Below, piece after piece: positions 13,667-25,036 of a DNA stretch of 64,000 nt (the first letter of the stretch is position 1; every line of letters starts with the position of its first letter). The DNA comes from Cognatiluteimonas sedimenti. Lineage in GTDB: Bacteria; Pseudomonadota; Gammaproteobacteria; Xanthomonadales; Xanthomonadaceae. The stretch lies in contig NZ_JALGCL010000001.1 of NCBI RefSeq assembly GCF_022808325.1, positions 353,780 through 417,779 on the forward strand, given 5' to 3'. A program made the translations under genes and the position numbers. The notes beneath the pieces were generated by a model. The model was not told where the DNA came from and did no database searches. It saw nothing but the letters and a program-made list of their open reading frames with translations.

Positions 13667-14268
13667 GCCCCGGGATCGACATCGACACCCTGGCCTGGGG
13701 CAAGCAGGACGGCCTGCTGCCCGCCATCGTGCAGGATGCCTGCACATTGCGCGTGCTGATGCTGGGCTACATGGACCGCGCAGCGCTCGTCGCCACGCTG
13801 GCCAGCGGCAAGGTCACGTTCTACAGCCGCAGCAAGGGTCGGCTCTGGACGAAGGGGGAATGCTCCGGCCATACGCTCGAACTCGTGTCCGTGGAGACGG
13901 ACTGCGACGACGACGCCCTGCTGCTGCAGGCGCATCCGCGCGGCCCGACCTGCCACCTGCTGCGCGCCAGTTGCTTCCCGTCCGCGCCCGCCGACCGGCT
14001 TGTGGAGCTCGATGCCCTGGTCGCGCAGCGTGAACGCGAGCGCCCGCAGGGCAGCTACACCACGCGACTGTTCGAGGATGGCGTCCGCCGTATCGCGCAG
14101 AAGGTGGGCGAGGAGGGCGTGGAGACCGCGCTGGCGGCGGTCGCCCAGGGCGAGGACGCGCTGCTGGGCGAAGCCGCCGACCTGCTTTACCACCTGGCCG
14201 TGCTGCTGCGCGCGCGGGGAGCGTCGCTGGGCGATGCCCGGCGCGTGCTGGCGGCCAGGGTCGCTTGA
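13663..14268 (+). CDS. hisI: Bifunctional PRA-CH / PRA-PH
   Basis: Predicted 201-residue HisIE fusion doing steps 2 and 3: phosphoribosyl-ATP pyrophosphohydrolase and phosphoribosyl-AMP cyclohydrolase. Residues 1-110 are the cyclohydrolase ([27 protein letters not shown], zinc ligands including CDDDALLL); 115-201 the pyrophosphohydrolase ([13 protein letters not shown], with acidic Mg ligands). The best start is TTG at 13663, sharing TTGA with the hisF stop; the next ATG would delete conserved sequence. Last gene of the operon; the ECF sigma promoter begins 9 bp past its stop. Confidence 0.94.
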
Positions 14269-14276
14269 TCCAGGCC

Positions 14277-14305
14277 TGCATCCAATTGCCCCGGACGGGC
14301 GTATA
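14277..14305 (+). promoter_or_regulatory. ECF-type promoter of the sigma/ChrR operon
   Basis: TGCATCCAAT (-35, from 14277) and CGTATA (-10 core GTATA at 14301-14305) are separated so that TGCATCC and GTA lie 17 bp apart. The same arrangement recurs before the desaturase operon at 15741. ChrR-linked sigma factors (RpoE of Rhodobacter sphaeroides) read related TGATCC-type -35 elements, so positive autoregulation is likely. Confidence 0.65.
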
Positions 14306-14390
14306 GCCGGCTGGAAAACCACAGCAAGCGTGTACGATGCCCATCACTTCGATCCGGGGACCAAGGCCGCCCGCCAAGGCGTCCAGCCGA

Positions 14391-14957
14391 ATGTCCAGCG
14401 CTGGCAGGCTCATCGGGAATGCGGGTGACTGGTCGGCGGAAATGGCTGCGGTTGCGAGCCGCGCGGATCGCGAAAGCTTCCTGCGCATCTACGACTATTT
14501 CATGCCGCGCCTGTGCCTGTACCTGCGCGGCATGGGAACGCCGGAAAGCATGGCTGAAGAGCTGTCGCAGGAAGCGATGCTGCGCCTGTGGCAGAACGCG
14601 GCCGGCTACAGTCCCGGACGCAGCGCCTTGAGCACATGGTTGTTCCGGATCGCGCGAAACCTGCACATCGACCGCCTGCGGCGCGAATCCGGCTGGTCGT
14701 CCGCCCCGGTCGACGAGATCGACGCCGAACCGGACCGGGCTGCCTGCACCGCCGAGGAATTCGCCGACCACGTCGAGCTGCAGCGTCGCATCGACTCGCT
14801 CTCCTCGGTCCAGGCACGCCTGATACGCATGTCCTACTTCGAAGCCAAGAGCCACCAGGAGATCGCCGGCGAGCTTGGCATGCCCCTGGGCACCGTGAAG
14901 TCCCACCTGCGCCGTGCGTTCCTGCGGTTGCAGGAAGAGTTGGGAGCGACGCCATGA
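14391..14957 (+). CDS. rpoE: ECF RNA polymerase sigma factor (RpoE/ChrR type, ECF11-like)
   Basis: Predicted sigma factor of about 188 residues. Region 2 (FLRIYDYFMPRLCLYLRGMG, then EELSQEAMLRLW and TWLFRIARNLHIDRLRR) reads -10 DNA; region 4 (SSVQARLIRMSYFEAKSHQE, then LGMPLGTVKSHLRRAFLRL) reads -35. I give MSSAGR as the start; ATG at 14337 (18 residues longer) or 14442 are possible and no site has a good ribosome-binding sequence. Stop overlaps the anti-sigma start by 4 bp. Together with ChrR this is the pair that answers singlet oxygen in R. sphaeroides; here it heads a lipid/photolyase operon with the same promoter motif. Confidence 0.92.
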   Translation: MSSAGRLIGNAGDWSAEMAAVASRADRESFLRIYDYFMPRLCLYLRGMGTPESMAEELSQEAMLRLWQNAAGYSPGRSALSTWLFRIARNLHIDRLRRESGWSSAPVDEIDAEPDRAACTAEEFADHVELQRRIDSLSSVQARLIRMSYFEAKSHQEIAGELGMPLGTVKSHLRRAFLRLQEELGATP

Positions 14958-15616
14958 CCCCTCGCCATCACCTCGATCCCGCCACCGTGGTCAGCCATGC
15001 CGCCGGCGCCCTCTCGCCGGAAATGTCGGCCATCGTCGCCACCCACCTGGCAGGCTGCGTCGAATGCCGACGCGCCGTGGCCCGGGCCGACGGCATCGGC
15101 GGCGCGCTCCTGGGGCAGCAGCAACCACAAGCGACACCGCGCCACTCGCTGTTGCGCGCGGCGATGCTGGAACGCCTGGAAGCGGCGGCGCCGCTGCCGC
15201 CCGCACACGCACCGCCGGACGCACCGATCGATCCGGACCGCCTGCCGACGCCGTTGCAGCCTTACTTCGGCACCTCGTATCGCGCCTTGAAATGGCGCTG
15301 GATGGGGCCGGGGATGCATTTCATTCGCACGGTCGGCCCGACCGGGGGAACCATGCTGATGCTGCGCATCGCCCCCGGCAAGCGCATGCCCGTTCACGGC
15401 CACCAGGGCAGCGAGCTCACGCAGATCCTGCGTGGCGCATACGACGACGACCTTGGCCATTTCGCTGCCGGTGATGTCGCCGACCTCGATGCCGAGACCG
15501 AGCACCAGCCGGTGACGTCTGCCGGCTCCTCCTGCATCTGCGTGTCCGCGCTGGATGCGCCACTGCGCTTTCCCGGCTGGCTGGCGCGCACCCTGCAACC
15601 CGCCTTCGGGATCTGA
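14954..15616 (+). CDS. chrR: ChrR-type zinc anti-sigma factor with cupin domain
   Basis: Predicted 220-residue cytoplasmic anti-sigma factor. The N-terminal anti-sigma domain has His6, His31, Cys35 and Cys38, the same positions I recall as zinc ligands in R. sphaeroides ChrR. A linker (about 55-100) leads to a cupin-like domain (about 105-215) with His148, His150, Glu154 and His184, the second metal site. Family knowledge: ChrR holds its sigma factor until singlet oxygen or organic peroxide releases it. Overlap of 4 bp with the sigma gene and identical operon order support the pairing. Confidence 0.93.
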   Translation: MTPRHHLDPATVVSHAAGALSPEMSAIVATHLAGCVECRRAVARADGIGGALLGQQQPQATPRHSLLRAAMLERLEAAAPLPPAHAPPDAPIDPDRLPTPLQPYFGTSYRALKWRWMGPGMHFIRTVGPTGGTMLMLRIAPGKRMPVHGHQGSELTQILRGAYDDDLGHFAAGDVADLDAETEHQPVTSAGSSCICVSALDAPLRFPGWLARTLQPAFGI

Positions 15617-15740
15617 GCGCACCCGCTCCTGCGCCCCCTGGCCGGCCGACGATGGAACTGGCCGCGAGGGCGATCGCTCGCCAGTTCGTTCGGCCGGCGG
15701 GGCCGCGGCGTCCATGCGACCCATCGAGGCCGGCCCGCCC

Positions 15741-15770
15741 TGCATCCAATCCAATGCTCCGCACGTAGGA
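15741..15770 (+). promoter_or_regulatory. ECF-type promoter of the desaturase-photolyase operon
   Basis: TGCATCCAAT (15741-15750) and GTAGGA (15765-15770) repeat the spacing of the sigma-gene promoter: TGCATCC-N17-GTA. The -10 overlaps an inverted repeat CGTAGG...CCTACG (15764-15783) that may be incidental. The expected start point leaves a short leader before the GGGAGGA ribosome-binding site at 15783. The remaining 15617-15740 shows no gene. Confidence 0.65.
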
Positions 15771-15793
15771 GTCGCAGCCTACGGGAGGATGCA

Positions 15794-16765
15794 ATGCAGA
15801 GTGAGGTCGCACCGCAGCGGCAGCCATCGCCAGCACGCGGTATCGCCGCCGTGATGCGCTGGTTCGATACCAGTGCGTCGTCCGCCGACGTCGACCCGGC
15901 GCTGGACGAGCGCGTCGACTGGTTGCGGGCGCTGCCGTTCGCGGGGATGCACCTCGCATGCCTGGGCGTGTTCTGGGCCGGGGTCTCCGCCACGGCGCTC
16001 TGGGTTGCGCTCGGGCTGTATGCGGCGCGCATGTTCGCCATCACCGGCTTCTACCACCGCTATTTCTCGCACCGGACGTTCCGGACCTCGCGCCCGGTCC
16101 AGTTCGCCTTCGCGGTGCTTGGCGCGTCGGCGGTACAGCGCGGGCCGTTGTGGTGGGCGGCGCACCATCGCCACCACCACGTGCATGCGGACACGCAGGC
16201 CGATCCGCACAGCCCGCGCAACGGGTTCTGGCGCAGCCATGCCGGCTGGTTCCTGACCCGTGCCGGATTCCGCACGGACACCTCGCGGATCGGCGACCTG
16301 CTGAAGTTCCCGGAATTGCGTTGGCTCGATCGCTACGACACTGCCGTTCCGGTCGCCCTTGCGGTGCTGCTGTTCGCCGTCGGCGAAGCGTTGGCGCGGC
16401 GGGCGCCGGGACTGGGCACGAACGGCGTGCAATTGCTGGTCTGGGGCTTCTTCGTGTCGACGGTGGTGCTGTTCCACGCCACCGTGACGATCAACTCACT
16501 GGCGCATCGCCTGGGAAGCCGTCGTTATGCAACCCGGGACGACAGCCGCAACAACTGGTGGCTGGCCCTGCTGACCTTCGGCGAGGGCTGGCACAACAAC
16601 CACCACTTCTTCCCGGGCAGCGCGCGCCAGGGCTTCCGCTGGTGGGAGATCGACCTGACCTGGTACGGCCTGCGCATGATGCAGGCGCTCGGCCTGGTCC
16701 GCGCGCTCAAGCCGGTGCCCGCGTGGGTACTGGCAACGCGCGGTGCCCACGAGGTTGGACGCTGA
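15794..16765 (+). CDS. Membrane fatty acyl desaturase (acyl-CoA Delta9 type)
   Basis: Predicted 323-residue di-iron membrane desaturase that inserts a double bond into acyl chains using O2. The three histidine boxes are present: HRYFSH (about residue 88), HRHHH (about 126) and HNNHH (about 264). Four hydrophobic segments flank them (about 47-80, 100-120, 180-200, 213-232). GGAGG lies 5 nt before the ATG. First gene of the candidate photooxidative operon, with a 1-bp stop/start overlap to the next gene. It may supply unsaturated substrate for the methyltransferases downstream, or act as the desaturase of a furan fatty acid route. Confidence 0.9.
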   Translation: MQSEVAPQRQPSPARGIAAVMRWFDTSASSADVDPALDERVDWLRALPFAGMHLACLGVFWAGVSATALWVALGLYAARMFAITGFYHRYFSHRTFRTSRPVQFAFAVLGASAVQRGPLWWAAHHRHHHVHADTQADPHSPRNGFWRSHAGWFLTRAGFRTDTSRIGDLLKFPELRWLDRYDTAVPVALAVLLFAVGEALARRAPGLGTNGVQLLVWGFFVSTVVLFHATVTINSLAHRLGSRRYATRDDSRNNWWLALLTFGEGWHNNHHFFPGSARQGFRWWEIDLTWYGLRMMQALGLVRALKPVPAWVLATRGAHEVGR

Positions 16766-18063
16766 TGCGTATCGCCGTCGTCGGCAGCGGGATCGGAGGG
16801 CTCTCTGCGGCCTGGCTGCTGTCGCGCCGGCACGACGTGGTCCTGTACGAGGCCAGCGATTACCTCGGGGGCCATACCGACACCCATGCGGTCGCGGTCG
16901 ACGGGCGCGTGGTGCGCGTGGACACCGGTTTCATCGTCCACAACCCGGTCCATTACCCGTTGCTCAGCCGCATGTTCGACGAGCTTGGCGTGGCCAGCAA
17001 GGCGACCACCATGAGCTTCTCGGTGCAGGATGCGTGCAGCCGGCTCGAGTACAACGCCACGTCGCTGGACACGCTGTTCTGCCAGCGGCGAAACCTCGTG
17101 TCGCCGCGTTTCTGGGGGATGCTGCGCGACCTGCGGCGCTTCTACCGCGCGGCGCCCGGCCTCCTCGACCATGCCGGCGGCGGCCCGTCGCTGGGTGATT
17201 ACCTGGATGAAAACGGCTATGGCGCGGCCTTCCGCGACCTGCACCTGGTGCCGATGGCGAGCGCGCTCTGGTCCTCGCCCGCGGCGGCGATCATGCGTTT
17301 CCCTGCGAAGTACCTCGTCCGGTTCATGGCCAACCACCACATGCTGCAACTGACGGGAAGACCGGCATGGCGGGTGGTCGAGGGCGGCTCGCGCAGTTAT
17401 GTGGAGGCGATGGCCTCGGATTGGCGGGTACAGGTGCGCCTGCGCAGACCGGTGCGCGGGATCGCGCGCGATGCGCATGGGGTGAGGGTGCGCTGCGACC
17501 ACGGCGTGGAGCGATACGACCAGGTGGTACTGGCCTGCCATGCGGATGAGGCGTTGGCCCTGCTAGATGATCCAGGCCAGGGCGAGCGTGAAATCCTCGG
17601 CGCCTTCGCCTTCCAGGCCAACGACACCGTGCTGCACACCGACGCGGCGCTGCTGCCACGCAATCGCAAGGCGTGGGCGGCCTGGAATGCCCACGTCCCG
17701 GCGGATCCCGCCCAAGGCTGCACGGTCAGCTACTGCATGAACCTGCTGCAGGGGCTGGAAGCGGCCAAACCGCTCGTGGTCACCCTCAACCGCACGGACG
17801 ACATCGACCCCGCCACGATGCTGGTGCGCAGGTCCTACCGCCACCCCGTCTACACCCACGCCATGGTGGCCGCACAAGCGCGCAAGCACGAAATCCAGGG
17901 CATGGATCGAACCTGGTTCGCGGGCGCGTACTGGGGCTGGGGCTTCCACGAGGACGGCATGCGAAGCGGCGTGGAAGTCGCCGGCGCGCTTGGCGTAGCC
18001 TGGCCGGGGGCGGCGGCGGTCGCATCGGCGCGATGCGAACGATCGCTGAGCGTGGCGGCGTGA
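16765..18063 (+). CDS. NAD/FAD-binding amine-oxidase-like oxidoreductase
   Basis: Predicted 432-residue flavoprotein. IAVVGSGIGGLSAAWLLSRR at the N-terminus is a canonical dinucleotide-binding fold, followed by an Asp/Glu-ending strand (VVLYEA) and GGHTDTH, the signature of the DUF1365-linked amine-oxidase-like group. The C-terminal WFAGAYWGWGFHEDG closes the FAD site. Substrate is unknown; its constant partners DUF1365, CFA-like synthase and ChrR sigma point to oxidation of a modified fatty acyl chain. Starts at TGATG overlap with the desaturase; overlaps DUF1365 by 4 bp. Confidence 0.85.
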   Translation: MRIAVVGSGIGGLSAAWLLSRRHDVVLYEASDYLGGHTDTHAVAVDGRVVRVDTGFIVHNPVHYPLLSRMFDELGVASKATTMSFSVQDACSRLEYNATSLDTLFCQRRNLVSPRFWGMLRDLRRFYRAAPGLLDHAGGGPSLGDYLDENGYGAAFRDLHLVPMASALWSSPAAAIMRFPAKYLVRFMANHHMLQLTGRPAWRVVEGGSRSYVEAMASDWRVQVRLRRPVRGIARDAHGVRVRCDHGVERYDQVVLACHADEALALLDDPGQGEREILGAFAFQANDTVLHTDAALLPRNRKAWAAWNAHVPADPAQGCTVSYCMNLLQGLEAAKPLVVTLNRTDDIDPATMLVRRSYRHPVYTHAMVAAQARKHEIQGMDRTWFAGAYWGWGFHEDGMRSGVEVAGALGVAWPGAAAVASARCERSLSVAA

Positions 18064-18830
18064 GCGCGATGGCCAGTGCCCTGTACGAAGGCACGGTGCG
18101 CCACCGCCGCCACCTGCCGCATGCGCATGCGTTCTCGTACCGGCTCGCGCAGCTGTACCTGGACCTGGATGAAATCGAGTCGGTGTTCCGCGACCGCTGG
18201 CTGTGGTCGCTGGAGCGTCCCAACGTCGCGTCGTTCCGGCGCGCCGACTTCCTCGGGGACCCCGGGCAACCGCTGGGCGATGCCGTCCGCGCCCGCGTCG
18301 AGGCTGCGACGGGGGAGCGACCCGCCGGTCCGGTGCGGCTGCTGGCCCACCTGCGCTATGGCGGCTACAGCTTCAACCCCGTCAGCTTCTATTACTGCCA
18401 CGACGGCACGGGCGCGCTGCACAGCATCGTTGCCGAGATCACGAACACGCCCTGGAAGCAGCGACACGCCTACGTGCTCCCGCTGGCCAATGCCACGCAG
18501 CGCGGGCGGGCGCTGCACTGGCGCTTCGACAAGGCCTTCCACGTCTCTCCGTTCCTGCCGATGGAACGCCGCTATGAATGGTCCTTCACGGTGCCGGGCG
18601 ACGACCTGCGCGTGCACATGGATGTTCTTGGGGGCGGCACGCGCGAGTTCGATGCCAGCCTGTCGCTGCAGCGCAAGCCACTGGACCGACACGCCATGGC
18701 GCGCGTGCTGTGGCGGTACCCGCTGATGACCACCCAGGTGATCGCCGCGATCCACTGGCAGGCGCTGCGCCTGTGGCTCAAGGGCACGCCCGTCCACGAC
18801 CACCCCTCAAGGCAGGAGAGAGCCGCATGA
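18060..18830 (+). CDS. DUF1365 family protein
   Basis: Predicted 256-residue protein of the DUF1365 family, which has no assigned reaction. Typical segments are YEGTVRHRRHLPHAHAFSYR at the N-terminus, LLAHLRYGGYSFNPVSFYYC near residue 100, and HVSPFLPMERRYEW. The GTG at 18060 (4-bp overlap with the FAD gene) is taken as start; ATG at 18069 would shorten it by three residues. The family is nearly always encoded between the FAD oxidoreductase and a CFA-like synthase, as here, so a shared lipid-modifying step is likely. Confidence 0.85.
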   Translation: MSAMASALYEGTVRHRRHLPHAHAFSYRLAQLYLDLDEIESVFRDRWLWSLERPNVASFRRADFLGDPGQPLGDAVRARVEAATGERPAGPVRLLAHLRYGGYSFNPVSFYYCHDGTGALHSIVAEITNTPWKQRHAYVLPLANATQRGRALHWRFDKAFHVSPFLPMERRYEWSFTVPGDDLRVHMDVLGGGTREFDASLSLQRKPLDRHAMARVLWRYPLMTTQVIAAIHWQALRLWLKGTPVHDHPSRQERAA

Positions 18831-20101
18831 CCAGCATCGTCCGCCCAGTCGCGTCCACTGCGGAGGCGGCACCGGGCGCGATGGACCGCTTCCTGCGTGG
18901 TCGCCTGTTGGGCCGGCTCGCCAAGTTGCGTGGCGGCGAGCTGGAGTTGACCGACGCGCTTGGCACCGTGCGCGTGGGCGAGGCCGGCGCCGCCGTGGCG
19001 ATCCGCCTGCAAGTCCATGGTGCGGGCTTTTACCGAGCGCTGGCCGGCAACGGCAGCATCGGCGCGGCCGAGGCCTTCATGGACGGCGAATGGGACTGCA
19101 GCGACCTGGTCGGGCTGGTGCGCCTGCTGGTGCGGAACCGCAACCTGCTCGACGCCATGGAACGCGGGCCGGCACGACTGGGCGGCCTGGCCCTGCGTGG
19201 CTGGAATGCGATGCGACGCAACACCCGCGCCGGGGCGCGTCGCAACATCGCCGCCCACTACGATCTCGGCAATCCGTTCTTCCGCCTGTTCCTCTCCGAA
19301 GACCTGATGTATTCGTCCGCCATCTACGCGGGAGCGGACGATACGCTCGAAGCCGCTTCCACGCGCAAGCTGGACCGCATCTGCGAGAAGCTGCAGCTGA
19401 CCGCCGACGACCATGTGGTGGAGATCGGAACGGGCTGGGGAGGGTTCGCCGTGCATGCCGCGCGCTCCCGTGGCTGCAGGGTCACCACCACCACCATCTC
19501 GCGCGAGCAGCACGCACTTGCGCAGCAGCGCGTGGCAGAGGCTGGCCTGCAGGAACGGGTCACCGTGCTGCTGTCCGATTACCGCGACCTGCAGGGCCGG
19601 TACGACAAGCTGGTCTCGATCGAAATGATCGAGGCGATCGGGGCGCAATACCTGGAGACCTATTTCGCGACCATGGGCCGGCTGCTCAAGCCCGACGGCC
19701 TGGCCCTGGTGCAGGCGATCACCATCGAGGACCACCGCTACCGGCAGGCGCTGCGCAGCGTCGACTTCATCAAGCGCCACGTCTTCCCCGGTTCCTTCAT
19801 CCCGTCCATCACCGCAATGCTCGACGCCAAGACGCGCAGCACCGACCTGGCCCTGCTTCACCTCGAAGACTTCGGGTCGTCGTACGCGCGCACCCTGAAT
19901 GAGTGGCGCAGGCGTTTCCTGGGCAATCGCGATGCCATCCGCGAACAGGGCCATGACGAGCGCTTCCTGCGGATGTGGGAGTTCTACCTTGCGTACTGCG
20001 AGGGCGGATTCCTGGAACGCTCGATTGGCGTGGCTCACCTGCTGTTGGCGAAGCCGGGCTATCGCGGCGAACCCTATCTCCCCGGCCTGCTGGAGGCCTG
20101 A
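18827..20101 (+). CDS. CFA-synthase-like SAM methyltransferase
   Basis: Predicted 424-residue member of the cyclopropane fatty acyl phospholipid synthase family. Residues about 60-130 match the lipid-binding N-terminal domain (IGAAEAFMDGEW), HYDLGNPFF starts the catalytic domain at 144, and EIGTGWGG (199-206) binds SAM. Compared with my recollection of E. coli Cfa, the bicarbonate-site Cys139 is Ser (about 164) and His266 is Gln (about 296), while the Glu239 equivalent (about 269) is kept. It may therefore transfer a methyl group without closing a cyclopropane ring, as in branched or furan fatty acid synthesis. GGAGAG ribosome-binding site; 4-bp overlap with DUF1365. Confidence 0.88.
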   Translation: MTSIVRPVASTAEAAPGAMDRFLRGRLLGRLAKLRGGELELTDALGTVRVGEAGAAVAIRLQVHGAGFYRALAGNGSIGAAEAFMDGEWDCSDLVGLVRLLVRNRNLLDAMERGPARLGGLALRGWNAMRRNTRAGARRNIAAHYDLGNPFFRLFLSEDLMYSSAIYAGADDTLEAASTRKLDRICEKLQLTADDHVVEIGTGWGGFAVHAARSRGCRVTTTTISREQHALAQQRVAEAGLQERVTVLLSDYRDLQGRYDKLVSIEMIEAIGAQYLETYFATMGRLLKPDGLALVQAITIEDHRYRQALRSVDFIKRHVFPGSFIPSITAMLDAKTRSTDLALLHLEDFGSSYARTLNEWRRRFLGNRDAIREQGHDERFLRMWEFYLAYCEGGFLERSIGVAHLLLAKPGYRGEPYLPGLLEA

Positions 20102-20102
20102 G

Positions 20103-20642
20103 GTGCGGCCCTGGTCGAACCTGCTGGGGTACCAGGCCACGTGGCTGGCGGTGGTCTGGAGCGCAGGGCAGGGGCGCGCCTGGGTGGGCATGGCCGCCTC
20201 CGTCTTGTTCATCGCCATGCAGGGGTTGCTGTCGCGCACGCGCTCTGCCGATGGCCGCGCGCTGCTGGCGGCAGCCGCCTGTGGGCTGGTGGTCGACGGC
20301 TCGCTCGCGGCCAGCGGCCTGCTGGTCTACGCCTCGCCGGGCCACGCCTTGCCCGCGCCGGAATGGATCCTGTTCCTGTGGGCGGCGTTCGCGATGACGA
20401 TGAACCATTCGATGCCGTGGTTCGCGTCGCATCGCCTCGTCGCGGCGGGATTGGGTGCCCTCGGTGGCCCACTGGCCTACATCGGCGCCGCACGCGGCTT
20501 CGGCGCCGTAACCTTCGCCACGCCCGCCTGGCGCGGCCTGGCCTGCCTTGCCGTCGCATGGGAGATCGCACTGCCGTGGTTGCTGCGCGTGGCCACCGAC
20601 CGCCGTGTTGCCGAGCCCCTCGCCCCCAGGGCCCGGACATGA
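20103..20642 (+). CDS. DUF2878 membrane protein
   Basis: Predicted 179-residue inner-membrane protein with about five hydrophobic helices and the DUF2878 pattern (WSNLLGYQATWL near the start, MTMNHSMPWF near residue 100). Start is GTG at 20103, one base after the upstream stop. Function unknown; the family travels with CFA-like synthases and DUF1295 proteins in ChrR- or light-controlled operons. Confidence 0.8.
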   Translation: MRPWSNLLGYQATWLAVVWSAGQGRAWVGMAASVLFIAMQGLLSRTRSADGRALLAAAACGLVVDGSLAASGLLVYASPGHALPAPEWILFLWAAFAMTMNHSMPWFASHRLVAAGLGALGGPLAYIGAARGFGAVTFATPAWRGLACLAVAWEIALPWLLRVATDRRVAEPLAPRART

Positions 20643-21421
20643 CGCCCTGGCAGCAACTCCTGCTGGTGTGGACGCTGGCCGCAATCCTGCAGGGCGTGGC
20701 CTGGGCACGGCAGCAGCGCACCCGCAATGCAGGCATCGTCGACGTGGCGTGGGCGCTGGGCCTGGCGGGCGCGGCGGCGCTGGTTGCCGCCACCGGCGCG
20801 GGCGCCACGCTGCCGCGCCTGTTGCTTGCGATGCTGGGCGGCGCATGGGGTCTGCGCCTGGGCCTGCATCTGTGGCGGCGGGTCCGCCGCGAGGCGGAGG
20901 ACGGACGCTACGCGCAGTTGCGCCTTCGTTGGGGCGATGCACCGCTCACGTGGCTCGCCATGTTCCAGTTCCAGGCGCTGCTGATCGCCGTGTTCTCGCT
21001 GCCGTTCCTGTCGGTTGCCGCCAATCCGGTGGGCCACTGGAACGCCTTTTTCATCGCTGGCATCGGCATCTGGATCGCCAGCGTCACGGGCGAGGCCGTC
21101 GCCGATCGCCAACTCGCCCGCTTCCGCCACGATCCCGCCAACGCAGGCAAGACCTGTCGCGCCGGGCTCTGGCGCTATTCGCGGCACCCGAACTACTTCT
21201 TCGAATGGCTGCATTGGTTCGCCTACGTGCTGCTGGCCGCCCACTCACCCCTGTGGTGGCTGGCGTGGACGGGGCCGCTGGTCATGTACGTGTTCCTGCG
21301 CTGGATCAGCGGCGTCCCCTGGGCCGAGCAACAGGCGCTGCGCAGTCGGGGCGATGACTACGCGCGCTACCAGCGCACCACTCCCATGCTGTTCCCATGG
21401 TTCCCCAAGGAGGACCGATGA
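20639..21421 (+). CDS. DUF1295 protein (steroid 5-alpha-reductase-like fold)
   Basis: Predicted 260-residue polytopic membrane protein of the DUF1295 family, related to steroid 5-alpha reductases and ICMT-type methyltransferases. The cofactor-binding signature LWRYSRHPNYFFEW lies near residues 178-191, followed by the C-terminal helices. About six helices. 4-bp overlap with DUF2878 and with the next gene. Family knowledge suggests an NADPH-dependent reductase acting on a membrane lipid; the substrate is not known. Confidence 0.82.
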   Translation: MTPWQQLLLVWTLAAILQGVAWARQQRTRNAGIVDVAWALGLAGAAALVAATGAGATLPRLLLAMLGGAWGLRLGLHLWRRVRREAEDGRYAQLRLRWGDAPLTWLAMFQFQALLIAVFSLPFLSVAANPVGHWNAFFIAGIGIWIASVTGEAVADRQLARFRHDPANAGKTCRAGLWRYSRHPNYFFEWLHWFAYVLLAAHSPLWWLAWTGPLVMYVFLRWISGVPWAEQQALRSRGDDYARYQRTTPMLFPWFPKEDR

Positions 21422-22500
21422 ACGCTACCGCCGAAGCCATCGAGCCAGCCCGCGACCGGCCAGCCGCTGGCGTCCTGGGCCTGGCCGAACGCGGATGGCT
21501 GCCGGACATCCTGCTGCGCGCCGGCATGCGGCGCCTGTGCACGCAGCGCCTGCAGCAAGAGCACGCGAGCCACCCCGACGCCGCAGCGCGTCGCACCGCC
21601 GGGTTGATTGCCGACCTGCGGCGAAGTCCGCTCGCCATCCATGCCGACGTCGCCAACAGCCAGCACTACGAATTGCCACCCGGCTTCTTCGCGCTCTGCC
21701 TCGGCCCGCGACTGAAATACTCCGGCTGCTACTACCCCACCGGCAACGAGACGCTGGCACAGGCCGAGGAAGCAATGCTGGCCCTCTACTGCGAACGGGC
21801 GCAGCTGGCAAATGGCCAGGACATCCTGGAGCTTGGATGTGGCTGGGGTTCGCTGACGCTCTGGATGGCGCGCCAGTATCCGTATGCGCACATCACCGCG
21901 GTTTCCAACTCGGCGTCGCAGCGGGAATTCATCGAAGCGCGATGCCGCGAACAAGGCCTTGCGAACGTGCGCGTGCTCACCTGCGACGTCAACCGGCTCG
22001 AACTGCCGGCCGGATCCTTCGACCGGTGCGTCTCGATCGAGATGTTCGAGCACATGCGCAACTATGCGATCCTGCTCGATCGCATCGGCGGCTGGTTGCG
22101 CGACGAAGGCAAGCTGTTCGTCCACATCTTCTGCCATCGCACGCTGGCGTACCCGTTCGAGACCGAGGGCGAGGACAACTGGATGGGCCGGCACTTCTTC
22201 ACCGGAGGCTTGATGCCGGCGGCCGACACCCTGCTGTGGTTCCAGGGCTCGCTGCGGATCGAGGACCGCTGGCTGGTCGATGGTACCCATTACCAGCGCA
22301 CGGCCAACCACTGGCTGGCCAACCAGGATGCCCACGGGGAAGAGGTCATGGCGATCCTGCGCCCGGTCTATGGCGACGCGGCGTCCTTGTGGTTCCAGCG
22401 CTGGAGGATGTTCTGGATGGCCTGCGCCGAACTGTTCGGCTACCAGGACGGGCGCGAGTGGATGGTGGGCCACTATCGCTTCGCGAAGGGGGCTTCATGA
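21418..22500 (+). CDS. Second CFA-like SAM-dependent methyltransferase
   Basis: Predicted 360-residue class I methyltransferase distantly related to CFA synthases and to plant coclaurine-type N-methyltransferases. HYELPPGFF begins the catalytic domain near residue 83, LELGCGWGSLTLW is the SAM loop, and EMFEHM carries the conserved Glu-His. KYSGCYY retains a cysteine that the first paralogue lacks. I start at MNATAE because AAGGAGG precedes it at 5 nt and the start overlaps the DUF1295 stop. Probably modifies the same lipid as its neighbours. Confidence 0.85.
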   Translation: MNATAEAIEPARDRPAAGVLGLAERGWLPDILLRAGMRRLCTQRLQQEHASHPDAAARRTAGLIADLRRSPLAIHADVANSQHYELPPGFFALCLGPRLKYSGCYYPTGNETLAQAEEAMLALYCERAQLANGQDILELGCGWGSLTLWMARQYPYAHITAVSNSASQREFIEARCREQGLANVRVLTCDVNRLELPAGSFDRCVSIEMFEHMRNYAILLDRIGGWLRDEGKLFVHIFCHRTLAYPFETEGEDNWMGRHFFTGGLMPAADTLLWFQGSLRIEDRWLVDGTHYQRTANHWLANQDAHGEEVMAILRPVYGDAASLWFQRWRMFWMACAELFGYQDGREWMVGHYRFAKGAS

Positions 22501-23018
22501 CGCGCTTGCTCGCCGTGCTTGCCGTGGGAGTCCTGTCCGCCTGCGCCACCAACCCGTCCATACCACCCGTGGCCGAAGTCGACCTGCCGCGTTACATGGG
22601 CGACTGGTACGTGATCGCGCATATCCCGTCGTTCCGGGAACGCGACGCCTACGATGCCGTGGAGTCCTACCGGCTCGGAGAAGACGGCCGCATCCGCACC
22701 ACGTTCCGCTTCCGCAAGGGCGCCTTCGATGCACCGCTGGAGACAATGGAGCCGGTCGGAACCGTCGTGCCCGGCACCAACAACGCGGTGTGGGGCATGC
22801 AATTCGTGTGGCCGATCAAGGCCGAATTCGTCATCGTGGACCTGGATCGGCGGTATTCCCGCACCATCGTCGGCCGCAGCAAGCGTGATTACGTCTGGTT
22901 GATGGCGCGCACGCCGCAACTGCCCGGATCGGAACTGGACGCCGCGATCGCCCGGATCCGTGAACTGGGATACGACACTTCGAAGCTGCGCATGGTCCCG
23001 CAGTCGGGCGCCAGGTGA
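22497..23018 (+). CDS. blc: Lipocalin lipoprotein (Blc-like)
   Basis: Predicted 173-residue outer-membrane lipocalin. A short signal peptide ends in the lipobox LSAC (Cys about 17), so the mature protein is lipid anchored. YMGDWYVIAHIP is the conserved lipocalin first motif (G-x-W-Y) and the rest forms the eight-stranded barrel that binds fatty acids or lysophospholipids. 4-bp overlap with the methyltransferase gene. In this setting it could store or ferry damaged or modified fatty acids. Confidence 0.9.
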   Translation: MTRLLAVLAVGVLSACATNPSIPPVAEVDLPRYMGDWYVIAHIPSFRERDAYDAVESYRLGEDGRIRTTFRFRKGAFDAPLETMEPVGTVVPGTNNAVWGMQFVWPIKAEFVIVDLDRRYSRTIVGRSKRDYVWLMARTPQLPGSELDAAIARIRELGYDTSKLRMVPQSGAR

Positions 23019-23043
23019 TCGCGCGCGACGCGCGGGGCAGTGG

Positions 23044-24417
23044 ATGAGTCCGGGCATCTTCTGGTTCCGGCGCGACCTCCGGTTGGCGGACAACCCGGCG
23101 CTTGATCGTGCCTGCGCTTCGCACGAGAAGCTGTTGCTGGTCTACATCGACGACGACCGCAAGCAACCCTACGACGCCCGGCGTGCATGGCTGGCGAGGT
23201 CGCTGCAATCCCTGGCGGCGGATATCGGCGAACGCGGTGGAACGCTGCACGTCCTGGCCGGCAACCCGGACAGTCTCCTGCCCAGGCTCGCCGCGGCCAG
23301 TGGCGCCGAAGCGGTACACGTCTCGGCGATGCAGGAACCCGACGCGGACGCACGCGATGCCAGGCTCGCCGCGATGCTGGCGCGCGATAACGTGGCCCTG
23401 CGTCGCGCAGGGGGGCGCCTGCTGACCGATCCGGACCTCGTGCGGACCCGGGACGACGCCCCCTACCGGGTATTCACCCCATTCTTCAAGGCAGCACGAC
23501 CCGCCTGGCGCCATCGATCGCGCGTCGCACCCGGGCGCTTCCGCTGCCTCGAACTGCCCGCTTCGCTTGCCGGCGCGCTCAGTCCCATTGCCGCTCCGCA
23601 GCCGGGGTGGGACCGGGGGTTCTGGCAGGCCTGGACGCCTGGCGAAACGGGAGCGCGAAGGCGCCTGGACACGTTCACGGAACGACTGGATGCCTATCCC
23701 GCCGAGCGTGACGTTCCGGCGATCGATGGCACTTCACGGCTGTCTCCGCACCTGCACTTCGGCGAAATCAGCGTGGGGCGCGCACTGGATGCGGCGCGCG
23801 CGCACGGTGGCAACGGCGCCGACAAGTTCATCGCGGAACTGGGGTGGCGCGAATTCGCCTACTACGTCCTGCACCATTGGCCGGACAGCGTTGAGGAAAA
23901 CCACAACCGCCGATTCGACGGCCTGGCCTGGCGTCACGATCCGGCCGCCCTGGATGCCTGGCAGCGCGGGCGCACCGGCGTGCCATTGGTCGATGCTGGA
24001 ATGCGCCAGCTCTGGCACGAGGGATGGATGCACAACCGCGTCCGCATGGTGGTGGCATCGTGGCTGACCAAGCACATGGGCCACCATTGGCGCGACGGGG
24101 CCGCATGGTTCATGCGAACCCTGGTCGATGCCGACATCGCGAACAATGCGCTGGGATGGCAATGGGTCGCGGGAACCGGTGTCGACGCGGCGCCGTACTT
24201 CCGCATATTCAACCCCGTTACCCAATCACGCAGGTTCGACCCCCGGGGCCTGTACCTGCGGCGATGGTTGCCCGAACTTGCGCTGCTGGACGACGTCGCG
24301 ATCCATGCACCGTGGGAGGCAGGACATGTCCCCCGTGGATACCCCCCACGCCCCATGGTCGATCTCGCCGCAGGTCGCGCGGCGGCGCTGGCCCGCCTGA
24401 AATCGGTGTCGGGCTGA
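23044..24417 (+). CDS. phrB: Deoxyribodipyrimidine photolyase
   Basis: Predicted 457-residue class I CPD photolyase that splits UV-made pyrimidine dimers using blue light. FWFRRDLRLADNPAL opens the antenna domain; the FAD domain contains ELGWREFAYYVLHHWP, GVPLVDAGMRQLWHEGWMHN and DADIANNALGWQWVAGTGVD (Trp, Asn and Asp flavin contacts). Length is family-typical (about 470). 25 nt after the lipocalin stop, last gene of the operon. Photolyase in the same regulon as ChrR-sigma lipid genes is known in R. sphaeroides. Confidence 0.95.
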   Translation: MSPGIFWFRRDLRLADNPALDRACASHEKLLLVYIDDDRKQPYDARRAWLARSLQSLAADIGERGGTLHVLAGNPDSLLPRLAAASGAEAVHVSAMQEPDADARDARLAAMLARDNVALRRAGGRLLTDPDLVRTRDDAPYRVFTPFFKAARPAWRHRSRVAPGRFRCLELPASLAGALSPIAAPQPGWDRGFWQAWTPGETGARRRLDTFTERLDAYPAERDVPAIDGTSRLSPHLHFGEISVGRALDAARAHGGNGADKFIAELGWREFAYYVLHHWPDSVEENHNRRFDGLAWRHDPAALDAWQRGRTGVPLVDAGMRQLWHEGWMHNRVRMVVASWLTKHMGHHWRDGAAWFMRTLVDADIANNALGWQWVAGTGVDAAPYFRIFNPVTQSRRFDPRGLYLRRWLPELALLDDVAIHAPWEAGHVPRGYPPRPMVDLAAGRAAALARLKSVSG

Positions 24418-24458
24418 GCCGGCCCGGATCGTCCGTGCGCATTTTCCGGTTGCAGATG

Positions 24459-24491
24459 CCCCGGCGCGTAGCGGGTACCTGCGCGCCGGGG
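24459..24491. terminator. Hairpin between convergent phrB and lipocalin genes
   Basis: CCCCGGCGCG (24459-24468) pairs perfectly with CGCGCCGGGG (24482-24491) across a 13-nt loop. No T-run follows on either strand, so it is a possible Rho-assisted or bidirectional terminator rather than a classic intrinsic one. Confidence 0.4.
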
Positions 24492-24505
24492 AGAACGCAG
24501 GGAGG

Positions 24506-25036
24506 TCAGAGTTGCCTGGTGCGGACGAGCCTGGATGTATCGAACCCCTGTGCCTTGGCGAGGTCGACAAGCTGGCGATAGGTTTCGTCGGGAAGCTGCT
24601 TCTCGCGCGAGAGGATCCACAGGTACTTGCGATCCGGCGAGCCCACGACAGACCAGCGATAGCCCTCATCCAGCCCGATGATCCAGTAGTCCCCCCACAC
24701 GAAGGGGAGGAACGAGAGGAACGCCGGTGCAAAACGGACCTCCAGCCTGGAGGTGCTGTTTCCGACTTTCCTGGCGACGCCTTGGGCGACGATTTTCCTT
24801 CCATCATCGGCCTCGCAACTGTTCAGGACGTCGACGTGGCCATCGGGACGCAAGCTGTAATTCGCAGTGGTGTTCCTGTCGCATTTCCTCTGGAAATACA
24901 TCGGCAGGCGGGCCTGCTCGTACCAGGTTCCCATGTACGATTCCAGGTCGACCGCGGCAACGGTCTGCACCTGGGCAACTGCCGTGTTTCCCGCGATCGT
25001 CGTGGCGAAGGTCAGCGCAACCAGCAGGTTCTTCAT
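24506..25036 (-). CDS. Periplasmic lipocalin (Blc-like)
   Basis: Predicted 176-residue lipocalin with a cleavable, non-lipoprotein signal peptide (MKNLLVALTFATTIAGNTAVA, cleavage after about residue 21, written here as a position: 1-21). SYMGTWYEQARLP carries the G-x-W-Y motif and CDRNTTANYSL the second conserved segment. It differs from the operon lipocalin in lacking the lipobox, so it should be soluble in the periplasm. Convergent with phrB. No ECF-like promoter was found in front of it, so co-regulation is not shown. Confidence 0.88.
   Translation of the reverse strand: MKNLLVALTFATTIAGNTAVAQVQTVAAVDLESYMGTWYEQARLPMYFQRKCDRNTTANYSLRPDGHVDVLNSCEADDGRKIVAQGVARKVGNSTSRLEVRFAPAFLSFLPFVWGDYWIIGLDEGYRWSVVGSPDRKYLWILSREKQLPDETYRQLVDLAKAQGFDTSRLVRTRQL

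Follow-up and report, generated by a model that had tools for sequence, protein, structure and literature searches.

Matched candidate promoters of a ChrR-linked ECF sigma factor and a lipid/photolyase operon in Cognatiluteimonas sedimenti, with a lineage-specific -35 element

The sigma-chrR locus, its operon and the predicted promoter pair

The window (the whole 64-kb stretch of Cognatiluteimonas sedimenti DNA that was analysed) carries on its plus strand an ECF sigma factor gene (14337..14957) encoding sigma70 r2 and r4 domains, the nearest solved relative of which is R. sphaeroides RpoE (2q1z_A, E = 4.9e-30). An alternative start is the ATG at 14391; a second start in this vicinity is seen in several relatives, and R. 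sphaeroides RpoE also begins close to it. The -35 recognition helix, PLGTVKSHLRRAF, is encoded at 14883..14921 (plus strand), with His173 at 14904-14906 and Arg176 at 14913-14915, in E. coli sigmaE numbering, which we set by an alignment to the sigmaE helix. The sigma gene overlaps chrR (14954..15616, plus strand), encoding an anti-sigma factor with a zinc-type N-terminal domain and a cupin domain (TIGR02451, 164.6 bits against a cut-off of 124.5; nearest structure match 2z2s_B, E = 1.3e-41). Its residues H6, H31, C35 and C38, as well as H148, H150, E154 and H184, are invariant in 17 sequences and aligned in 2z2s_B, and are presumably metal ligands. Among six genomes of the genus, the window's own is alone in having ChrR over the cut-off and alone in having DUF1365, so that the distribution of the region 14954-24417 within the genus is patchy.

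Downstream of chrR, on the same strand, lie nine genes spaced no more than 25 bases apart, provided that the last one starts at 23044. They encode a fatty acid desaturase (15794..16765; PF00487), a flavin amine oxidase-like oxidoreductase (16765..18063; PF01593), a DUF1365 protein (18069..18830; PF07103), a first cyclopropane fatty acid synthase-like methyltransferase (18827..20101; PF02353), a DUF2878 protein with a GTG start (20103..20642; PF11086), a DUF1295 protein (20639..21421; PF06966), a second cyclopropane fatty acid synthase-like methyltransferase (21397..22500, starting at 21397 or 21418; PF02353), a lipocalin (22497..23018; PF08212) and a DNA photolyase whose start codon is uncertain (23044..24417; TIGR03556, E = 1.1e-92, under the model's own cut-off). 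A lipocalin-like reading frame, named by eye, faces the photolyase on the minus strand (24506-25036), and a lipocalin-photolyase pair occurs near chrR in many relatives. The placement of the operon varies among the named loci we collected: it runs on the same strand as the sigma gene or divergently, includes or lacks the photolyase, or is missing from the surrounding 10 kb.

A pattern search of the window located TGCATCC-N17-GTA on the plus strand at 14277-14303 (TGCATCCAATTGCCCCGGACGGGCGTA), upstream of the sigma gene, and at 15741-15767 (TGCATCCAATCCAATGCTCCGCACGTA), upstream of the nine closely packed genes of which the photolyase is the last, confirming the pair and the equal spacing described in the initial annotation. 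In the register used below, each predicted promoter reads T-36 G-35 C-34 ATCC, N16, CGTA, with the -10 element at 14300-14303 in the sigma-chrR promoter and at 15764-15767 in the operon promoter. The 64 kb contain no other match even if one mismatch is allowed, and the resulting count is not significant alone (2 observed, 2.06 expected), but the longer common form TGCATCCAAT-N13-CGTA, which also matches twice in the window, was not found in any of 100 dinucleotide shuffles. From TGCATCCAAT to GTA the two sites are identical at 3 of the 14 intervening positions, in line with the little similarity noted earlier between the elements. Scanning 14200-24600, we found no sigma-70-type promoter, and terminator-like sites were at the expected level (3, against 3.8 expected). 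A GC-rich inverted repeat in the gap between chrR and the operon (15642-15700) was considered as a terminator or attenuator and rejected, its folding being no better than that of shuffled sequences (z = -0.88).

Genome-wide, the motif is more frequent than random expectation. In the 2.74-Mb genome of the window, TGCATCC-N16/18-GTA matched 12 times, against 5 for a reversed control, and TGCATCCAA-N14/16-CGTA matched three times, always as N14, against none. There are 6 exact copies of TGCATCC-N16-CGTA, whereas base composition (G+C assumed to be 0.68) predicts about 0.9; allowing up to one mismatch gives 27 matches (control, 11), of which three perfect sites and one other (L247) lie well upstream of a plausible start, the remainder not being counted as regulon. 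TGATCC-N16-CGTA is absent from this genome, as is its control. In a set of 149 family genomes, the 27-base TGCATCCAA-N-CGTA form has 20 sites in the 21 genomes with ChrR, 9 in the 41 with RskA only and 3 in the 87 with neither, where the ChrR genomes comprise 19 over the family cut-off and two with split matches, and 26 with weaker matches count as without. The motif thus does not occur at random frequency, and the genome-wide check proposed in the initial annotation came out above random.

The third TGCATCCAAT-N13-CGTA of the window's genome (L005:1501-1578, G000:C1:547427) precedes a fasciclin-domain lipoprotein gene by 50 bases, and another family genome (G061, locus L053) has a fasciclin gene with a similar site 88 bases upstream. 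On the minus strand at L247:1501 (G000:C1:567755), CGCATCC-N16-CGTA stands 52 bases before a lipoprotein-like gene with a glycine-rich stretch, which is thus a possible further target judging by this site. Two ChrR genomes (L055 and L297) carry the site some 55 bases upstream of genes for similar secreted proteins; the L055 protein had no Pfam match.

By its regions 2 and 4, its closeness to R. sphaeroides RpoE, and the adjoining ChrR with zinc-type N-terminal and cupin domains, the sigma factor agrees with the sigma-ChrR group ECF11, and the gene types of the ECF11 core regulon (photolyase, CFA-type synthase and amine oxidase) are all present in the operon. The locus does not have the RskA_C anti-sigma factor that adjoins the sigma in SigK-RskA systems: the gene after the sigma is chrR, and RskA_C (PF10099) has no match in the window's genome. 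The ECF11 consensus TGATCC-N16-CGTA is not found at the two window sites, both of which read TGCATCC-N16-CGTA. From their sequence, the predicted promoters are thus those of a variant of the sigma-ChrR system, agreeing with it in -10 element and spacing, and not of canonical ECF11.

The -35 element and the recognition helix

The register ATCC-N16-CGTA is also that of the TGATCC promoters described for P. syringae, Shewanella and R. sphaeroides. When the window sites are aligned on it, the T-35 G-34 of TGATCC is replaced by T-36 G-35 C-34. The initial annotation had described the -35 as differing from the TGATCC of Rhodobacter RpoE by one inserted base; the difference stands, and the shared register turns the insertion into two substitutions, T-35 to G and G-34 to C, while a T occupies -36.

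To follow these positions across relatives we assembled 175 ChrR loci, of which the family sample supplied 21 and class and phylum samples 74, the other 80 being named loci. The family sample, the named loci and one locus of the same order (L217) form the Lysobacterales set; 12 of the 80 named loci are metagenome bins with no finer label than Proteobacteria, Pseudomonadota, Gammaproteobacteria or, once, Chloroflexota, and were included by similarity. A sigma gene was found beside chrR in 158 of the 175 loci (17 were without), and 129 distinct rows were left after dropping 15 duplicates of the Lysobacterales set and the loci in which no site was located (10 other and 4 Lysobacterales). Of these four, L118 (S. 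maltophilia 13146) and L120 yielded no site, L084 has a one-base variant, and L119 is truncated by a contig end. Sites were selected on ATC, a spacing of 15-17 and CGTA, and ATCC and a spacing of 16 took precedence, so that ATCC and the spacing are partly set by choice, while bases -37 to -34 were free to vary.

In all 80 Lysobacterales-set rows G-35 occurred together with Arg176. The spacer was 16 in 79 of them, T-36 was present in 68, and position -34 was C in 70, A in 7 and G in 3. The 49 other sigma-ChrR rows had T-35 in 45 (another base in four), G-34 in 45 and a spacer of 16 in 44; residue 176 was Leu in 46, Ala in two, Lys in one and never Arg. Arg173 was found in 49/49 of these rows as compared with 0/80 of the Lysobacterales set. 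The sigma groups thus differ at helix positions 173 and 176, which face the upstream end of the -35 element. On a tree that included 45 of the 80 Lysobacterales rows, this covariation amounts to one independent pair, a single evolutionary event, so that counting rows does not separate covariation from lineage. One sigma factor with Arg173 and Lys176 (L186) was examined as an intermediate and rejected: 29 further loci of its family yielded 22 sigmas, none with Arg176, and 17 of the 21 with a site had T-35/G-34. Among the ChrR-linked sigmas sampled, we found no second independent switch at 176 and -35.

The site recurs before the target genes as well as before the sigma gene. ATCC-N16-CGTA precedes the first desaturase gene in 63 of 65 rows (not in L089 and L114), and G-35 is present in 67/67 sites located before desaturase or photolyase genes, some genomes being entered twice in both counts. 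Photolyase genes placed apart have the site in only 4 of 22 cases. These recurrences support the initial annotation in tying the nine-gene operon to the sigma factor.

In the solved complex of sigmaE4, Arg176 binds the base of G-35, and an equivalent contact is described for SigW (PMC6713349). By analogy, Arg176 most likely reads G-35 in the lineage of the window as it does in sigmaE and SigW. The TGATCC and GCATCC forms may not be strictly exclusive, since PSPTO_4231, a target of the P. syringae TGATCC sigma PSPTO_1043, is reported with a gcATCC -35 and rises 7-fold on sigma overexpression (PMC5507510). The -35 difference itself is lineage-specific and has a clear structural candidate.

We therefore favour, with a probability of roughly 80%, the reading that the two sites are promoters of the window's own, ChrR-restrained ECF sigma factor and that their -35 is a Lysobacterales form in which Arg176 would read G-35. 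Under this model, the sigma factor (14337-14957) would be kept inactive by the ChrR made from the next gene until a photo-oxidative or redox-type signal, which we infer from relatives, inactivates ChrR. RNA polymerase carrying the sigma would then start after 14303, making more sigma and ChrR, and after 15767, making the enzymes of membrane fatty acid remodelling, the lipocalin and the photolyase. Recognition would rest on G at -35 and mostly C at -34, met by a sigma factor with Arg176 and no Arg173, where other ChrR-linked sigmas have mostly Leu at 176 and always Arg at 173.

RskA-linked sigmas beside the same operon and other readings of the site

The site also occurs in family genomes that have no ChrR, before a desaturase gene (G090), a fasciclin gene (G061) and a cytochrome b561 gene (G127). 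The best sigma in seven such genomes is 30-35% identical to that of the window, with the helix KSWxRR or, once, KSQxRR, and a domain scan of the gene after two of these sigmas returned RskA_C (PF10099). RskA_C-linked sigmas with the helix KSWIRR were seen at L299, L300, L303, L304 and L362-L391, many of them beside the same desaturase operon; in Lysobacteraceae, such sigmas are found mostly in genomes without ChrR. Among the 149 family genomes, 21 have ChrR, 42 have RskA and one (G019) has both (Fisher p = 0.008, uncorrected for kinship). DUF1365, which we used as a marker of the operon, lies within 12 kb of ChrR in 19, of RskA in 24 and of neither in 35 of the 78 genomes that have it. In G019 (L013, L138, L379) the sigma-ChrR pair has GGCATCC before the sigma gene, and the sigma-RskA pair adjoins the lipid operon, with CTGCATCC and ATGCATCC.

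All 27 distinct sigmas from 30 family RskA loci have Trp173 and Arg176. GCATCC-N16-CGTA precedes the sigma gene in 11 of these 27 and the desaturase gene in 16 of the 20 operons beside RskA-linked sigmas, the misses being L369, L370, L373 and L375; thirteen further desaturase rows, from DUF1365-centred loci, ended short of the promoter and were uncounted, and L369, a duplicate sigma with a different GATCC-type candidate, stands outside the sigma-site tally. Twenty of the 35 operons that lie near neither pair served as a control. GCATCC-N16-CGTA was absent before the desaturase in all 17 of the control genomes without ChrR over the cut-off and without RskA, and present in two of the three that hold a pair elsewhere. 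In 5 of the same 17 (L422, L423, L424, L427 and L432), GCATCC or GAATCC occurs with a 17-base spacer, and a third sigma may serve these operons. In the class-level sample, 28 of 29 sigmas from RskA_C loci have Arg176; a GC(A/G)TCC candidate was found in 9 of the 29, only four of them with a spacer of 16 and CGTA, possibly by chance.

The initial annotation took the motif as the target of the local sigma. This holds in so far as autoregulatory and target promoters are likely, but the motif is seemingly not this sigma's alone, because RskA-linked sigmas have the same site upstream of themselves and of the same operon. It is about an even chance, going by sequence, that within this one family the ChrR and RskA pairs are interchangeable drivers of the lipid operon through GCATCC-N16-CGTA. 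Such an exchange would be possible because the ChrR-linked sigma of Lysobacterales has the Arg176/G-35 reading of the RskA-linked sigma and, if true, it would mean that the target promoters need not be rewritten when a sensor is replaced. Sensor exchange, which synteny and sequence suggest may have taken place, is the newest part of this analysis. In the parts of the literature covered, no ChrR-linked sigma is given a GCATCC consensus, and no RskA-linked sigma is described on this lipid operon.

As to history, a tree computed with the helix masked separated the ChrR-linked sigmas, as a single group, from the RskA-linked ones (support 99/97; 60 rows, with the long or odd L159, L229, L232, L352, L346, L360 and L343 kept out), and an earlier quick tree of 18 and 30 rows gave the same grouping (support 90, not starred). 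The common Arg176 and G-35 are therefore not due to the two Lysobacterales groups being sisters. The Lysobacterales -35 could nevertheless be ancestral and shared with the RskA-linked sigmas, TGATCC and Leu176 having arisen in the other ChrR-linked sigmas. The prevalence of Arg176 in the class-level RskA_C sample fits this history, and the AU test does not reject a topology that unites the other ChrR sigmas in a single clade (p-AU = 0.293); that clade, however, appears in 0/200 bootstrap trees, and the best trees put the Lysobacterales ChrR sigmas among the other ChrR sigmas. We regard an ancestral Lysobacterales form as a possible but less probable history.

It is unlikely that the promoter class is common to several sigmas and the operon of the window mainly driven by one that is not ChrR-linked. 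Elsewhere in Lysobacteraceae the operon with GCATCC-N16-CGTA does stand beside an RskA-linked sigma, and in G019, where both pairs are present, the operon marker lies beside RskA; but the genome of the window has no RskA_C match, its operon adjoins the sigma-ChrR pair, and the homologous cluster of S. maltophilia is tied in published work to a ChrR-linked sigma (PMC11832516). We give still less credence to the C of TGC being a true one-base insertion, with the same amino acids reading the same TG. T and G do still precede ATCC, one base outward, but T-36 varies (68/80) and G-35 does not (80/80), and residues 173 and 176 differ between the groups in every row of the Lysobacterales set, which argues against an insertion, as the same side chains would not be expected to follow one. 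That both copies are random or duplicated sequence with no promoter role is highly improbable, for although the short pattern, with one mismatch allowed, is no commoner in the window than chance predicts, the long form is absent from the shuffles, site and spacing are conserved across many genera, and the agreement of the spacers at only 3/14 positions speaks against a recent duplication.

Read as promoters of the ChrR-restrained sigma, the pair offers a natural case of a difference in ECF -35 specificity, in which two helix positions and two base positions change while the -10 element and the spacing are kept, and of a regulon that seemingly retains its promoters while its sensor is exchanged. 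It bears on the question of whether R. capsulatus remodelled its rpoE-chrR or acquired a sigK-rskA-like locus. That species offers a parallel in that its rpoE-chrR locus, which is induced by singlet oxygen, is described as nearer to the SigK-RskA pair than to RpoE-ChrR (PMC7074977). For annotation, a search based on TGATCC would overlook this regulon in Lysobacterales. The initial observation was correct and useful in recognizing an ECF promoter pair and tying the operon to it, and is backed by the work on a relative described below.

Comparison with known systems

The closest known counterpart is rpoEc-chrR-chrA with smlt2375-smlt2367 of S. maltophilia, likewise a sigma/ChrR pair and a nine-gene lipid cluster containing a desaturase, an oxidoreductase, two CFA synthases and a lipocalin (PMC11832516). 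The published account reports that this cluster shows the strongest induction of any gene set in a chrR mutant (165- to 697-fold in a single RNA-seq run), is back at base level without the sigma, and that its deletion nearly reverts the chrR phenotypes; a MEME-derived sigma box lies before both operons (PMC11832516). The link between operon and sigma is thus already known from the homologous, sigma/ChrR-controlled cluster and is not new here. The S. maltophilia pair is reported to have no effect on singlet-oxygen tolerance. In S. maltophilia D457 and NEC1 (L147 and L149) we found TGCATCC before the sigma gene and CGCATCC or TGCATCC before the desaturase gene. The arrangement differs: the S. 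maltophilia cluster is divergent and begins with a periplasmic protein, chrA follows chrR, and the cluster table gives no photolyase (PMC11832516), whereas the window operon follows chrR on the same strand with no intervening gene and ends in a photolyase.

R. sphaeroides RpoE-ChrR (ECF11; PMC6852236, PMC5036791) shares with the window a homologous sigma and anti-sigma factor and the ATCC-N16-CGTA register, and the ECF11 core regulon as described (PMC5507510) has the photolyase, CFA-type enzyme and amine oxidase of the window operon. In the published accounts its -35 is TGATCC, and in our alignment its sigma has Arg173 and Leu176, as compared with TGCATCC, His173 and Arg176 in the window. P. 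syringae PSPTO_1043 and Shewanella oneidensis RpoE2 are gammaproteobacterial sigma-ChrR systems that are likewise reported to be autoregulated and to control a phr/cfa operon; they differ in their consensus, TGATCC-N16-CGTA, with the gcATCC of one P. syringae target as described above (PMC5507510, PMC4336711). Finally, the SigK-RskA-type pairs of Lysobacteraceae resemble the window system in that their sigma flanks the same operon and combines Arg176 with GCATCC-N16-CGTA, but their anti-sigma factor is of the RskA_C type and not ChrR, and their sigmas are the 30-35% identical ones described above.
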